From Aquimarina spinulae (GTDB lineage Bacteria; Bacteroidota; Bacteroidia; Flavobacteriales; Flavobacteriaceae), in the NCBI RefSeq assembly GCF_943373825.1, contig NZ_CALSBP010000002.1, positions 3,647,501-3,711,500 of the forward strand: 64,000 bases of DNA. The letters run 5' to 3'. Positions 16,454 to 20,812 of the stretch are shown piece by piece (position 1 is the first letter of the stretch; each line of letters starts with the position of its first letter). The position numbers and the translations under genes are program-made. The notes beneath the pieces were generated by a model. That model had not been told where the DNA came from. It did no database searches and saw only the letters and a list, made by a program, of their open reading frames with translations.

Positions 16454-17230
16454 TTATAGGCTACTATTTTTCTCGGTTAAGTATTTCCAGTAGCGTTTTG
16501 GAAGGTGTTGTTTATGTAATTTGTTGTTTTTACGGGATTTTATGTTCACATTATTGTAGTATGTTCCCCATAGTTTTTGAAACTCGGTTTCGTTTTGAGC
16601 AAGTAGTCCTTCTGAAATACGAGTGTTTTTTCTAGAAAGCCCTTCGATAGTTACTGTTTCTACAGTGTTTAGATCATAGTAGATACCATAATTTCTTTTA
16701 ACATCATAGATAACCCATTGCTGATCGGCATAGCGATCCTTAAAATGATGAATGATTAGAGGTAAAACATTAAAATCTGGTTCTACAGTCGCAGTGTATA
16801 TATTATCACTGGTTAATTGAAAACGTACAAAAGCTTCCATTCTGTGCTTTTCCCGACCTACCATTCTCGCAACCTGGCTAATTTTTAAAATATCTTTATT
16901 GCCAAAATCAATATTCCTATTCTCTTTTTTGGTAAAAATATTTTGCATATAGCTCAATAATGTATTTTCTACACCTTTGATTTCACTTAAAAATACTTTA
17001 AAGAAATCCTGTTGTTCATTTCGGGTTGTTTTAGATTTAAACCCTTTCCATACTCTGGATGCTTTATGTTTCTCGGTAATAACCTCTTCTGTTATTGTAA
17101 ATAGTTGAGTGTTGGTTTCTGATTCTTTTCTAATAACGGCATCAGATATTTTTTGATCATATACCATAAAAACACAACTTAAAAATCCTTCAAAACTTCC
17201 ATCATATAGTAATATCGTTTGCGGATTCAT
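16454..17230 (-). CDS. TIGR03915-type DNA metabolism protein (DUF4130)
   Basis: This 258-residue protein matches the family that always accompanies the radical SAM DNA-repair protein. The N-terminus is ILLYDGSFEGFLSCVF, there is a central GREKHRMEAFVRFQ motif, and the C-terminus is LPKRYWKYLTEK. In other bacteria this domain is fused to a uracil-DNA-glycosylase-like domain, so a base-repair role is inferred. It lies 11 bp downstream of the radical SAM gene and is the last gene of the nuclease/radical SAM operon under the operator described at 18912. No biochemical activity is known to me. Confidence 0.82.
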   Translation of the reverse strand: MNPQTILLYDGSFEGFLSCVFMVYDQKISDAVIRKESETNTQLFTITEEVITEKHKASRVWKGFKSKTTRNEQQDFFKVFLSEIKGVENTLLSYMQNIFTKKENRNIDFGNKDILKISQVARMVGREKHRMEAFVRFQLTSDNIYTATVEPDFNVLPLIIHHFKDRYADQQWVIYDVKRNYGIYYDLNTVETVTIEGLSRKNTRISEGLLAQNETEFQKLWGTYYNNVNIKSRKNNKLHKQHLPKRYWKYLTEKNSSL

Positions 17231-17241
17231 AAGTATTAATA

Positions 17242-18504
17242 TTAAGAGAAAAGACTCAACTGTTGATTAAAGTATTTTTTATACTTGCTATTAGAGCTTT
17301 TTAGGATTTTAGCTTTTAATGTATGGGGGTCATGATCTTTGTTATAAAAATCCTTAGAATTACAAGTGATAAAATATTGGGCTCTGTTTAGAGCTATACC
17401 AATGGCTTTAAGATGAGACCAATCTAAATTTCTAAATTTTCTGGCCTGCAGTATTTTAAATACCGATTGCATACCGATACCAGGAACCCGGGCCAATATC
17501 CTTTTATCTGCTTTGTTGATATCAATAGGAAAGAAATGTAGATTACGTAATGCCCAACTTAGCTTTGGATCTATATCCAAGTCCAGATTTTTGTATTTGT
17601 CATTCAATATTTCGTTAACAGAAAATCCATAAAATCTCAATAACCAATCGGTTTGGTAAAGACGGTTTTCTCTAAGGATAGGAACCTCAGTTCCTAAGGA
17701 TGGTAACCGAGAGTCTGTCATAACAGGAATATATCCAGAGTAATATACTCGTCGCATATCAAATTTTTTATAGTAATAGGTTGCAGAATACATGATATCT
17801 CGATCACTCTCACCAGTTGCTCCAATGATCATTTGAGTACTTTGCCCTGCCGGAGCATATTTGGGAGTGTTCTTTATCGTTTTACGCTCTGCTTTATATT
17901 GAATGATTTCATTTTTAACCTTTTGCATAGGTTTTATAAAATCCTCATGTTTTTTATCTGGTGCTAAAAGTTTTAAGCCCGATTTGGTAGGGATTTCAAT
18001 ATTCACACTTAATCGATCTGCATATAATCCTGCCTCTCGCATCAATTCATCACTGGCGCCGGGAATAGATTTAAGATGGATATAACCATTAAAATTCTCT
18101 TCTAACCTGAGTTTTTTTGCCACAGCAACTAATCGCTCCATGGTGAAATCAGAGTTTTTAAATATCCCAGAGCTTAGAAATAGCCCTTCGATATAATTCC
18201 TTCTATAAAAATTAATAGTTAGATCAACTACTTCCTGAATTTTAAAAGCAGCTCTTTTAATATCATTACTTTTTCTGGTAATACAATATGCGCAATCATA
18301 AATGCAATGATTGGTAAGCAAAATTTTTAATAAGGAAACACAGCGTCCATCTTCTGTATAACTATGACAAATTCCGAAACCTGTATTATTCCCTAATCCT
18401 TTTTTGGTATTGGCTCTTTTACCTCCACTACTGGCACATGAAACATCATATTTTGCGGCATCTGCCAAAATGGAGAGTTTTTGACGTATTCGTTCAAACG
18501 ACAT
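17242..18504 (-). CDS. Putative DNA modification/repair radical SAM protein (TIGR03916)
   Basis: This 420-residue enzyme has a radical SAM cluster motif C67-x3-C71-x2-C74 (NHCIYDCAYC), preceded by other cysteines (C23, C46, C55). The C-terminus carries a helix-hairpin-helix element (LARVPGIGMQSVFKILQARK), which binds DNA non-specifically. The family is paired genetically with the TIGR03915 protein just downstream and is thought to act on DNA bases. The ATG overlaps the end of the DUF559 nuclease gene by 11 nt, so the three are one operon. The substrate is unknown; spore photoproduct-like chemistry is one possibility, without direct evidence here. Confidence 0.85.
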   Translation of the reverse strand: MSFERIRQKLSILADAAKYDVSCASSGGKRANTKKGLGNNTGFGICHSYTEDGRCVSLLKILLTNHCIYDCAYCITRKSNDIKRAAFKIQEVVDLTINFYRRNYIEGLFLSSGIFKNSDFTMERLVAVAKKLRLEENFNGYIHLKSIPGASDELMREAGLYADRLSVNIEIPTKSGLKLLAPDKKHEDFIKPMQKVKNEIIQYKAERKTIKNTPKYAPAGQSTQMIIGATGESDRDIMYSATYYYKKFDMRRVYYSGYIPVMTDSRLPSLGTEVPILRENRLYQTDWLLRFYGFSVNEILNDKYKNLDLDIDPKLSWALRNLHFFPIDINKADKRILARVPGIGMQSVFKILQARKFRNLDWSHLKAIGIALNRAQYFITCNSKDFYNKDHDPHTLKAKILKSSNSKYKKYFNQQLSLFS

Positions 18505-18877
18505 AGATGCATTCTGTAGCGGTTTTTATTTGATTTTTTACAGTTCTTATGATTTCTTCTATATCAGTTAATATTTGATAATCTGTGAATCTAAGAACCG
18601 TAATTCCTAGCGAAGAAATAAATAACTTTTTTGGCGCATCTAAGTTGTGGATATCCGAGAACTCGTGTGCATAGCTATCAATTTCAATAGCAATTTTTGA
18701 TGTGCCACAGTAAAAGTCAAAATTGTAATTTTTTACTGTCTTATTTCTAAGAAAATGAAACCCTTTTTCTATGAGTTTTTGATGAAGCTGGTCGATAGAT
18801 GTAATAGAACTATCGAGTGAATGTCTAATGATTTTCTCTGATACTTTTTGGTATAAAGGAATGGTTTGTGAAGACAT
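18494..18877 (-). CDS. DUF559 / Vsr-like PD-(D/E)xK endonuclease domain protein
   Basis: This 127-residue protein has the core VKNYNFDFYC...KIAIEIDSYAHE...LFISSLGITVLRFTDYQIL, matching DUF559 restriction-like folds: Asp of FDF, then E-I-D acid residues and a following His. Such domains cut or nick DNA, as in very-short-patch repair. I start at ATG 18877 (MSSQTIPLYQ). A longer frame from TTG 18907 would begin inside the proposed promoter box. The gene leads the operon with the radical SAM protein, supporting a repair role. Confidence 0.75.
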   Translation of the reverse strand: MSSQTIPLYQKVSEKIIRHSLDSSITSIDQLHQKLIEKGFHFLRNKTVKNYNFDFYCGTSKIAIEIDSYAHEFSDIHNLDAPKKLFISSLGITVLRFTDYQILTDIEEIIRTVKNQIKTATECIYVV

Positions 18878-18904
18878 GGTAGATGTATTTAGTTGTAATT
18901 TTTC

Positions 18905-18912
18905 CAAATTTA
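18905..18912 (-). promoter_or_regulatory. Putative -7 box of the nuclease/radical SAM operon
   Basis: The minus strand reads TAAATTTG, an exact TAnnTTTG match, placing the transcript start near 18900 and the ATG about 23 nt later. No clear TTG box is found at 19 bp. Confidence 0.5.
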
Positions 18913-18926
18913 TGGAATTTTTCCAA
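18912..18926. promoter_or_regulatory. Operator-like palindrome O2 (repressor site on nuclease operon side)
   Basis: ATGGAATTTTTCCAA has arms TGGAA and TTCCA around a 3-bp centre, the same geometry as O1. It abuts the -7 box on its upstream side. Confidence 0.6.
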
Positions 18927-18953
18927 TAATATTAAAATAAAATTATGTTAAAA

Positions 18954-18968
18954 TTGGAAATATTCCAA
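18954..18968. promoter_or_regulatory. Operator-like palindrome O1 overlapping the repressor gene promoter
   Basis: TTGGAAATATTCCAA is a perfect 6+3+6 palindrome. Its first three bases are also the TTG box of the repressor promoter, so binding would block transcription of the repressor gene itself. Centre-to-centre distance to O2 is 42 bp, about four helical turns. Confidence 0.7.
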
Positions 18969-18983
18969 AATCTTGTATCTTTG
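18954..18983 (+). promoter_or_regulatory. Promoter of the LexA-like repressor gene
   Basis: TTG (18954-18956), a 19-bp spacer and TATCTTTG (18976-18983) are a full match to the Bacteroidota consensus, about 63 bp before the ATG. Confidence 0.75.
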
Positions 18984-19046
18984 CTACTAATTATCCCAGG
19001 TCACAGCACCATTTTTATATGATAATACTATTAAAATTTCGATTTT

Positions 19047-19814
19047 ATGGATAATTCAACCAACCAAACCATAAAGCGTTTTAAACAAATTCGCGAGGAA
19101 AACCATTATACCCAATCTGATTTTGCCAAGGTTTTACAGATTAAAAATTCTACAGCAGATATAGAAAGGGGTAAGACTAAGATTTCAGGAAAAGTTGTAG
19201 CCAGATTATTACAGGAGTTTAATGTTAACCCCTTGTGGTTGTTTGGCGAGAGTACTCAAAAGAAAATACAATTACACCTGGGAGACGTATCTCCAAAAGT
19301 AGTGACTATAGATTCTCAGAATAATGAGAATATAGTTTTGGTAAATGTAAAAGCTGCAGCTGGATATCCTCATAATGTTCAGGATTTAGACTGGTATCAA
19401 CAATTACCTGCATTTGATATTCCTTTACCAGAGTATCGAAATGCTACATACCGGGGCTTTCAGGTAGAAGGGGATAGTATGTTACCATTGCTTGAACCCA
19501 AAGAATGGGTGATTGGTAAAGCTGTAAATAACCTTTCTGAAGTAAGTAATAATACAATTTGTGTAATTGTTTTGGAAGATAGTGTAGTGGTAAAGAAAAT
19601 TAGAAAAAATGCTGATGCTTCTATAATAACGCTAATCTCTTTAAATTCTGAATACTTACCTTATACGATTCAAACACATCAAATAGTTGAGCTTTGGGAG
19701 ATAAATAGCAAATTAAGTTTTAATATTGATGCTAATACTGATGCCGCCAGTATGAAACAGCTACAAGAAGCGATGCAGGTATTAACCTCTGAGGTGAGAA
19801 GTTTGAAACACTAG
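19047..19814 (+). CDS. LexA-like XRE/S24 self-cleaving transcriptional repressor
   Basis: This 255-residue protein has an N-terminal XRE helix-turn-helix (about 8-62, QIREENHYTQSDFAKVLQIK) and a C-terminal S24 peptidase domain. The self-cleavage elements are all present: an Ala-Gly bond at 105-106 (VKAAAGYP), the catalytic Ser144 in EGDSMLP, and a Lys at 183/184 (VVVKKIRK). Such proteins cleave themselves when RecA filaments form on damaged DNA, releasing their operons. The gene diverges from a nuclease/radical SAM operon; matching palindromes sit on both promoters, indicating autoregulation and control of the repair genes. It ends 4 nt inside the convergent App1-like gene. Confidence 0.88.
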   Translation: MDNSTNQTIKRFKQIREENHYTQSDFAKVLQIKNSTADIERGKTKISGKVVARLLQEFNVNPLWLFGESTQKKIQLHLGDVSPKVVTIDSQNNENIVLVNVKAAAGYPHNVQDLDWYQQLPAFDIPLPEYRNATYRGFQVEGDSMLPLLEPKEWVIGKAVNNLSEVSNNTICVIVLEDSVVVKKIRKNADASIITLISLNSEYLPYTIQTHQIVELWEINSKLSFNIDANTDAASMKQLQEAMQVLTSEVRSLKH

Positions 19815-20812
19815 TTTATGAATCCAGATTCTTGTGCATGTTTGATAGCTTCATCATAAGAGTGAACAAGTAGAATAGGAGAGACTGTAAAGGAATGTAT
19901 AATCTTTTTAATTCGCTTTTCTTTTCGACGATGTTTTACGTTTCTTAAATAAATAGCCAAAATACGACCGGGATATTGCTCTGCTATTTTGGTATAAATA
20001 TCAGCATCTTTTTCTCCACTATCTCCTATAAGAATAAATTTAAAATGTGGATACATCGTTAAAAGGTTTACAATTTCGGATTGCTTATGCGGAACTTTAG
20101 GTTTTGGTGTTTTATCAAATGGAGTTCTGAAATCTCTAAGTAAAATTGGGCCTTTTGGAAAATGATGCTTATTAAAAAATGCACTTAAATAATCATATAA
20201 ATTCCATGGGCTATTACTCACATAAAAGAAAGGGTTAACAGGTGATCCTTTTGTGCCCAGGTGTAATTTTTTACAAAATTTTACGGTGCCTTCTATTGCA
20301 GTTCTTTTGTCAAAGTTTTTGAAAAGTGTATTCGCAATAACCCTCCATTTAAATAGTGAAGCGACACCTGTATGTATGATAGTGTCATCGATATCACTTA
20401 TAATTGCAAATTCTGCTTGATCTGATGGTACAAGCATTTGGCTTTTAAATATGTTTTTGTTGCTTATTTCTTTATGCGTATTTTCCTTTTTGTAGGATAC
20501 GCTATATGTAATCCAACCATTTTCATCTATATGGTTAGAAAGCGTAGGAATATCTAGTTCTAGATTATAATACCCTTCGAGATCCGTACGTGTTTCTATG
20601 ACTTGTCCATTGGGTAATTTTAATGCTATCGAGATATCCCTAATTTCATCACTTTCAAGCTGCCTGTAGATATTCCTTAACGTTTTAAAAATGCTTTGAT
20701 TTGTGCTAAAATCGATATTTTCATCTTCAAGAGCTCTTCCTGTTGCACGAAAAATAGAATTTGTGCCATAACCAAGATAAGTATTGATACGTAAAGCTTT
20801 TTTCTTAAACAT
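19811..20812 (-). CDS. App1-like phosphatase (DUF2183, phosphatidate phosphatase fold)
   Basis: This 333-residue protein has a HAD-type catalytic motif DIDDT at 140-144 (FAIISDIDDTIIHTG), then FYVSNSPWNLYDYL and FILIGDSGEKDADIY, the three HAD motifs of the DUF2183/App1 family. Yeast App1 dephosphorylates phosphatidic acid; bacterial members are uncharacterised. The N-terminal 130 residues resemble a beta-sandwich (LPNGQVIETRTDLEGYYNLEL). There is no signal peptide. It is separated from hppA upstream on the same strand by a strong terminator. Confidence 0.82.
   Translation of the reverse strand: MFKKKALRINTYLGYGTNSIFRATGRALEDENIDFSTNQSIFKTLRNIYRQLESDEIRDISIALKLPNGQVIETRTDLEGYYNLELDIPTLSNHIDENGWITYSVSYKKENTHKEISNKNIFKSQMLVPSDQAEFAIISDIDDTIIHTGVASLFKWRVIANTLFKNFDKRTAIEGTVKFCKKLHLGTKGSPVNPFFYVSNSPWNLYDYLSAFFNKHHFPKGPILLRDFRTPFDKTPKPKVPHKQSEIVNLLTMYPHFKFILIGDSGEKDADIYTKIAEQYPGRILAIYLRNVKHRRKEKRIKKIIHSFTVSPILLVHSYDEAIKHAQESGFIN

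Follow-up and report, generated by a model that had tools for sequence, protein, structure and literature searches.

A predicted non-canonical SOS repressor of Aquimarina and its conserved operators in a divergent repair promoter

The repressor gene and the divergent promoter region

In the window, by which we mean the whole 64,000-nucleotide stretch of the Aquimarina spinulae genome that was analysed (contig NZ_CALSBP010000002.1, forward-strand positions 3,647,501 to 3,711,500), the open reading frame (ORF) list and the Pfam matches define a gene for an S24 repressor of 255 amino acids on the plus strand (19047..19814). The protein contains HTH_3/HTH_19 within residues 10-66 and Peptidase_S24 at residues 102-210, with a PF01381 score of 36.5 bits for a cut-off of 23. 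The LexA winged-HTH DNA-binding family was absent among its Pfam matches, and in this respect the protein differs from canonical LexA. The Ala-Gly bond, Ser and Lys of LexA-type proteins, which an earlier reading of the sequence alone (the sequence-only reading) had ascribed to the repressor, were found as Ala105-Gly106, Ser144 and Lys183 and are invariant in all 81 sequences aligned. The repressor is 100% identical to a protein of Aquimarina sp. AU58 (locus L050), and the genome (G000) comprises 6.24 Mb.

Confidence in the structural model of the repressor is low (mean pLDDT 62.6, and below 50 for residues 77-132). Helices are the sole secondary-structure elements predicted in residues 3-66, giving an all-helical N-terminus, and an extra C-terminal helix is modelled at residues 233-254, where block confidence is 52-61. 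The fold matches of the model were LexA, UmuD' and phage repressors, with TM-scores that were low over the whole chain and good for the C-terminal domain, which mainly carries the matches. The N-terminus matched PezA/DicA/RstR-type repressors, every one far under the curated cut-off, and a PDB sequence search with the repressor yielded PezA as the sole match (E 0.0038). Downstream, an APP1_cat (phosphatidate phosphatase) gene (19811-20812) is convergent with the repressor gene, the ends of the two overlapping by 4 bases, and all 47 Aquimarina-type loci have a homologue of this gene downstream of the repressor.

On the opposite strand, a divergent operon starts with the gene of a 127-amino-acid DUF559 protein (18494..18877, minus strand, ATG at 18877), defined by the ORF list, Pfam and the fold search (PF04480, 52.5 bits for a cut-off of 20.6). 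The end of this gene is overlapped by that of a 420-amino-acid radical SAM protein of family TIGR03916 (rSAM_link_UDG; 17242..18504, minus strand; 669.9 bits, cut-off 343.5), which is followed by the gene of a 258-amino-acid putative DNA repair protein of family TIGR03915 (DUF4130; 16454..17230, minus strand; 273.1 bits, cut-off 112.25). We take the TIGR03915-TIGR03916 pair to be the one designated COG1573-COG4277, in agreement with the family names. The DUF559 protein may have a PD-(D/E)XK/Vsr-like fold; its best fold matches were 3hrl, a putative endonuclease, and I-Bth0305I (E 0.003-0.008), and Vsr itself was matched only at an E value above 1. Asp54 of the DUF559 protein, presumably the catalytic Asp, is present in the window and in 34 of the 46 orthologues and is replaced by Asn in 11 and by His in one, so that some DUF559 copies may not be nucleases.

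Two palindromes lie between the repressor gene and the DUF559/radical-SAM/TIGR03915 operon, 42 bp apart as the sequence-only reading had described them. The putative operator O1 (18954..18968), TTGGAAATATTCCAA, is an exact palindrome with core GGA at 18956-18958 and TCC at 18964-18966, and the putative operator O2 (18912..18926), ATGGAATTTTTCCAA, has one outer mismatch and an exact core (18914-18924). The overlap of O1 with the TTG box of the repressor promoter was also recovered, as this promoter, TTG-N19-TATCTTTG (18954..18983, plus strand; -33 element at 18954-18956, -7 box at 18976-18983), starts with the first base of O1, the outer TTG of which doubles as its -33 element. Likewise, O2 was found to abut TAAATTTG, the -7 box of the promoter that serves the leftward DUF559 operon, which reads from 18912 to 18905 on the minus strand (18905..18912 by sequence and alignment) and which we regard as a good -7 box of the Bacteroidetes type. 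Given the ATG at 18877, the leftward 5'UTR would be about 20 bases long. The leftward -7 box lies between O2 and a degenerate third site, the candidate operator O3 (18893..18907), TTGTAATTTTTCCAA, with core GTA at 18895-18897 and TCC at 18903-18905, located 19 bp away from O2, where the leftward transcript is expected to start. The two sites proposed earlier are both real, but there are three in all, as O3 had been missed.

Conservation of the operators and of the degenerate third site

Pattern counts alone were rejected as evidence, as the 15-mer with mismatches occurs at chance level both in the window and in the genome. In the window, the full pattern with up to two mismatches was found 8 times versus a shuffle mean of 7.6. 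Genome-wide, there are 3 exact copies of the 15-mer versus 2 for the reversed control, one of the three falling inside a 424-amino-acid ORF (C3:364060); at the one-mismatch level 36 places were found versus 43 for the control, which is no enrichment, and single GGAANNNTTCC sites are hardly enriched (108 versus 95). Apart from C3:533403, these 36 places comprise 3 window sites, 25 places in ORFs, one of which, at dinB, is actually upstream of the likely start, and 7 intergenic places. Five of the 7 intergenic places belong to the operator pairs described below or to their genes (two in L016, one in L017 and two in L018), and another is L007. L025, between the genes of a DUF1028 protein and of DXP synthase, was dropped as an operator because it has no partner site.

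By contrast with the pattern counts, the clustering and the conservation of the sites place the observation beyond chance. Two GGAANNNTTCC sites are present in the intergenic region 18878-19046, a number reached by none of 20,000 dinucleotide shuffles. The 260 bp upstream of the repressor gene were then scanned for GGA-N5-TCC in an ortholog set made of the best 80 of 474 relatives. The sequence-only reading had named the conservation of the palindromes upstream of orthologous genes as one of the points on which it would stand or fall, and on this one it stood: at least one site was found in 80/80 loci and at least two in 78/80, L112 and L116 having a single one. In 200 shuffles of the 80 upstream regions the maxima were 7 loci with at least one site and 1 with at least two, and in the 260 bp after the repressor gene, used as a control, the corresponding numbers were 1/80 and 0/80. 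The palindromes are therefore real and beyond chance.

In an alignment of the window and 47 Aquimarina-type loci (L050-L096), the GGA-N5-TCC core of O1 is present in all 47 loci, and the start-to-start distance between O1 and O2 is 42 bp in 44 of them, 41 bp in two and 40 bp in one. The repressor promoter TTG-N19-TAnnTTTG is found in 45/47 loci, the other two having TCG variants, and the leftward TAnnTTTG box occupies the same place in all 47. Conservation amounts to 1.74-1.88 bits per column for O1, O2 and O3 (1.88 for O3), to 1.35 for the O1-O2 spacer and to 0.88 for the 5'UTR of the repressor gene.

The weakest step of the interpretation concerns O3, which we read as a weakened operator of a dinB-like design placed at the repair operon. 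Its GTA-N5-TCC is found in 47/47 loci, and GTA and TCC are invariant although the five bases between them differ from ATTTT in four loci. The promoters of dinB that have an operator pair show the same layout in 20 of 21 cases, with two intact GGA-N5-TCC sites 19 bp apart and the -7 box in the middle. The rival explanation, which we hold to be the less probable of the two but take seriously, is that O3 is not an operator and that its conservation merely reflects the -7 box and the transcription start of the DUF559 promoter. The -7 box does explain the 18905-18912 part of the conservation, and GGA is altered to GTA in every locus; the variable inner bases between invariant ends and the dinB layout argue against this explanation. 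As substitutions in either dyad abolish binding in the Salegentibacter relative studied, according to the published account (PMC8565304), O3 probably binds the repressor only with the help of O2, or not at all.

The genes facing the repressor vary among loci. DUF559 is the divergent neighbour in 46 of the 47 Aquimarina-type loci, the 47th (L088) having merely 313 bases upstream. No match to the radical SAM gene was found in the available flank of L064, L065, L084, L092, L093 and L096, where DUF559 and the operators stay. In L066 and L072 the radical SAM matches are short, with a TIGR03915 match nearby and DUF559 and the operators intact. Among the 33 outgroup loci (L097-L129), a repair-type divergent neighbour is present in 17, namely the radical SAM gene itself in two (L121, L128), a TIGR03915-like gene in 12 (all three scanned exceeded the cut-off for TIGR03915) and a dinB-like gene in three (the one scanned was IMS). 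Five Salinimicrobium loci have another divergent ORF, a Na/H exchanger in the one scanned, four outgroup loci have a small lipoprotein-like divergent ORF, and in seven no divergent ORF of 80 amino acids was found within 450 bp. The partner of the repressor thus changes; it is often a repair gene, without this being a rule.

Operator pairs outside the window and their spacing

That the repressor has a regulon, as predicted from the sequence, is indicated by operator pairs upstream of further genes outside the window. The pair pattern GGAANNNTTCC-N4..34-GGAANNNTTCC was searched, with a reversed control, in 37 genomes of the genus drawn from a larger group. It gave 139 pairs versus 2 for the control, a few of the listed places (e.g. 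G028:C6) resembling repeats; at least one pair was found in 32 of the 37 genomes and none in five. The A. spinulae genome itself has 5 pairs versus 0 for the control. Besides O1/O2 in the window, which serve the repressor and DUF559 genes, they lie upstream of the gene of an IMS polymerase of the polymerase IV type, with dnaE adjoining (C2:540919/540938), of a PA0069-family radical SAM gene (C2:3065995/3066016), of a TIR_2 gene (C2:3096335/3096356) and of a gene for a 112-amino-acid protein without Pfam family (C2:2348812/2348843). With the looser pattern GGA-N5-TCC-N0..30-GGA-N5-TCC, 12 pairs versus 5 for the control were counted in the same genome, of which 4 are operators named here and 8 are others.

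The expectation that the motif would occur near the promoters of SOS genes was borne out for dinB, the promoter of which has a pair, but not for recA, since the 300 bp upstream of recA in this genome contain no GGA-N5-TCC. In five other genomes of the genus, a pair precedes a long exonuclease ORF (L281-L285; five of the ten stretches picked from the listed pairs), and both of the two such ORFs scanned carry RNase_T and GIY-YIG domains; no operator pair of this exonuclease type was found in the A. spinulae genome. A second S24 repressor (L037; C2:1565873-1566571; 25% identical) was considered as a competing regulator and set aside, because neither GGA-N5-TCC nor CTAA-N5-TTAG was found in the 250 bp upstream of its gene.

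The TIR_2-domain protein of 328 amino acids with an operator pair (C2:3096445-3097428; L018:3946-4932; orthologues in L130-L156) has a gene match in 28 of the 37 genomes. Its Glu84 is invariant in the 28 sequences compared and, we assume, corresponds to the catalytic Glu of TIR NADases, and its PADLOC matches, to PDC-S66, ThsB and bSEFIR, are partial. Of the 30 loci of the PA0069-type radical SAM gene, 17 also contain the TIR gene, and in many species the two genes diverge from a single shared operator pair. In G017, the TIR gene (C23:817215-818198, minus strand), a pair (818280-818311) and the radical SAM gene (818352-819422, plus strand) follow in this order, so that both divergent genes can be served by a single pair. 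In A. spinulae, about 30 kb separate the TIR gene from the PA0069-type radical SAM gene, and each has a pair of its own. The 112-amino-acid gene (C2:2348308-2348646; L016:2509-2847) has its two operators at a 31-bp spacing, and a TAnnTTTG box lies between both operators in most loci with the pair. Two further small proteins of 107 and 125 amino acids, encoded in two other genomes of the genus (L286:2084-2407 and L289:2081-2458), each have a 31-bp operator pair; they are 40% identical to one another over 100 residues and have no Pfam family.

The spacing within a pair is largely fixed for each gene, and the distances between operator and start codon vary far more. For the TIR gene, 29 of 30 rows have 21 bp and the remaining one is a 50% paralogue; two rows are fragments of a single gene. 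For the PA0069-type radical SAM gene it is 21 bp in 28 of 30, the others being a single-site row and a piece of a split gene. The 112-amino-acid gene has 31 bp in 25 of 30 rows, 21 bp in one, a single site in one and no site in three, which are extra copies in genomes whose other copy has the pair. The dinB spacing is 19 bp in 21 of 30 rows; the nine rows without a pair in 400 bp are three distant homologues (35-36%) and six diverged copies (64-67%). In three genomes with diverged copies (G017, G022 and G032), a pair is found about 1.45 kb upstream, possibly where a longer operon begins. For the exonuclease the spacing is 20 bp in four cases and 18 bp in one. A test of the six promoter families with spacings of 42, 21, 31, 19, 20 and 31 bp for a common helical phase (R 0.92, approximate p 0.006) gave a result that is suggestive only, because these families were picked after inspection of the data and because the spacings of the outgroup repressor loci, mostly 18-23 bp, spread wider. 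The fixed spacings per gene (19, 21, 31 and 42 bp) point to a possible cooperative binding on the same face of the DNA.

Interpretation and comparison with known systems

Taken as a whole, the gene at 19047-19814 very probably encodes the SOS master repressor of this Aquimarina genome, a non-canonical LexA of the GGA-N5-TCC group. A repressor dimer on O1 would cover the -33 element of its own promoter and thereby ensure autorepression, while repressor bound to O2, probably aided by the weak O3, would flank the -7 box of the DUF559-radical SAM-TIGR03915 operon. Once DNA is damaged, RecA filaments would induce the Ser144/Lys183 dyad to cut the Ala105-Gly106 bond, and the repressor gene, the repair operon and the polymerase IV-dnaE, PA0069-type, TIR and 112-amino-acid targets would be released together. 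The sites, the promoter-like sequences, the residues, their conservation and the distant operator pairs were obtained directly, whereas we infer binding, cleavage and induction in this organism and the parts played by O3 and the fixed spacings.

The conserved operators, the distant pairs and a homologous system inducible by mitomycin according to its published description (PMC8565304) support the SOS-like repressor proposed from the sequence. It is very unlikely that the same operators and repressor respond to an inducer other than RecA and DNA damage, such as another stress or a ligand: recA is outside the regulon by motif and the assignment in Aquimarina is made from sequence, but Ala-Gly, Ser and Lys are invariant, repair and translesion genes are among the targets, and the homologous regulon is reported to be mitomycin-inducible (PMC8565304). 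Similarly improbable is a phage-derived repressor, prophage-like or toxin-antitoxin-like, whose control is limited to its own gene and the divergent neighbour and which has no SOS regulon. The PezA/DicA/RstR-like N-terminus with its sub-cut-off matches and a divergent layout resembling phage switches might suggest it; against it stand the four more operator pairs kept genus-wide at fixed spacings and the absence of phage genes among the ORFs listed at 14-25 kb, as judged by inspection and, for five of these ORFs, by their families.

Beyond the SOS master repressor itself, we propose only tentatively, and with more doubt than belief, a CI-like cooperative operator grammar (dimers paired on one helix face at spacings of 19-21, 31 or 42 bp, and a weak third site at the repair operon) combined with a TIR/DUF559 effector arm. 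If it were true, DNA damage would switch on repair together with a TIR-type defence or a self-limiting response. The analysis supports, from raw sequence, a phage-type SOS repressor in a large marine genus and provides a precise promoter map. It also raises the questions of whether the repair operon owes its threshold of induction to O3, whether the spacings reflect cooperative binding, and why a TIR gene is kept under such operators, often facing a radical SAM enzyme.

Contrary to the sequence-only reading, SOS control in this group of bacteria is not poorly described, since two groups of non-canonical LexA of Bacteroidetes were described in 2021, of which the GGA-N5-TCC group is found mainly in Flavobacteriaceae (PMC8565304). 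According to this description, binding to GGA-N5-TCC and induction of the targets by mitomycin C were shown in Salegentibacter agarivorans, in which recA was not induced (PMC8565304). The repressor of L107 (Salegentibacter tibetensis), a congener of the species with the tested protein WP_075324850.1, is 64% identical to that of the window. The targets predicted in the published work are DinB-dnaE, an SplB-like radical SAM protein, COG1573-COG4277, a GIY-YIG exonuclease and the repressor itself (PMC8565304), and this published regulon matches the genes found here, the exonuclease in relatives only, which argues for the master-repressor reading. The control of a radical SAM repair enzyme, proposed in the sequence-only reading, had already been predicted there if COG1573-COG4277 is equated, as assumed above, with the operon of the window (PMC8565304).

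Literature searches on GGA-N5-TCC or COG4277 with LexA and on non-canonical LexA in Flavobacter retrieved PMC8565304 alone; those on Aquimarina SOS/LexA and on TIR-SOS-LexA, in mostly non-subscription literature, retrieved no apparently related paper, and nothing was found in the searched literature under the names TIGR03916 and PA0069. The words 'Aquimarina', 'DUF559', 'TIR' and 'cooperativ' are absent from the main text of PMC8565304. A degenerate third operator, fixed pair spacings and a TIR gene were not found in the mostly non-subscription literature searched, the spacing having been checked in PMC8565304 alone.

Like the GGA-N5-TCC group as described, the window repressor has an S24 domain, a CI-like HTH, the Ala-Gly, Ser and Lys residues and an extra C-terminal helix, and its operators are found at its own gene, at dinB-dnaE, at an splB-like radical SAM gene, at an operon of the COG1573-COG4277 type (by the equivalence assumed above) and, in relatives, at an exonuclease/GIY-YIG gene (PMC8565304). 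It departs from that description, as far as its main text goes, by the third degenerate operator, the fixed pair spacings and the DUF559 and TIR genes (PMC8565304). With canonical LexA of E. coli it shares the S24 domain and the autocleavage residues, and it resembles an autoregulated SOS repressor, but it has HTH_3/HTH_19 instead of the LexA winged HTH. Like phage CI (lambda, 186), it combines an all-helical N-terminus and an S24 C-terminus with several operators in a divergent promoter region, whereas its predicted operators also stand beside repair genes scattered across the chromosome. A Vsr-like DUF559 protein, VsrA of Caulobacter, is reported as SOS-induced (PMC12907096), and here too a DUF559 gene, possibly Vsr-like, is under predicted damage control; however, the bacterial group and the LexA are different, the DUF559 gene of the window is divergent from that of the repressor, and 12 of the 46 DUF559 orthologues have Asn or His in place of the presumed catalytic Asp. 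The core switch is thus not new, and the extensions to it (O3, the spacings, the TIR gene and the DUF559 gene) are moderately new.
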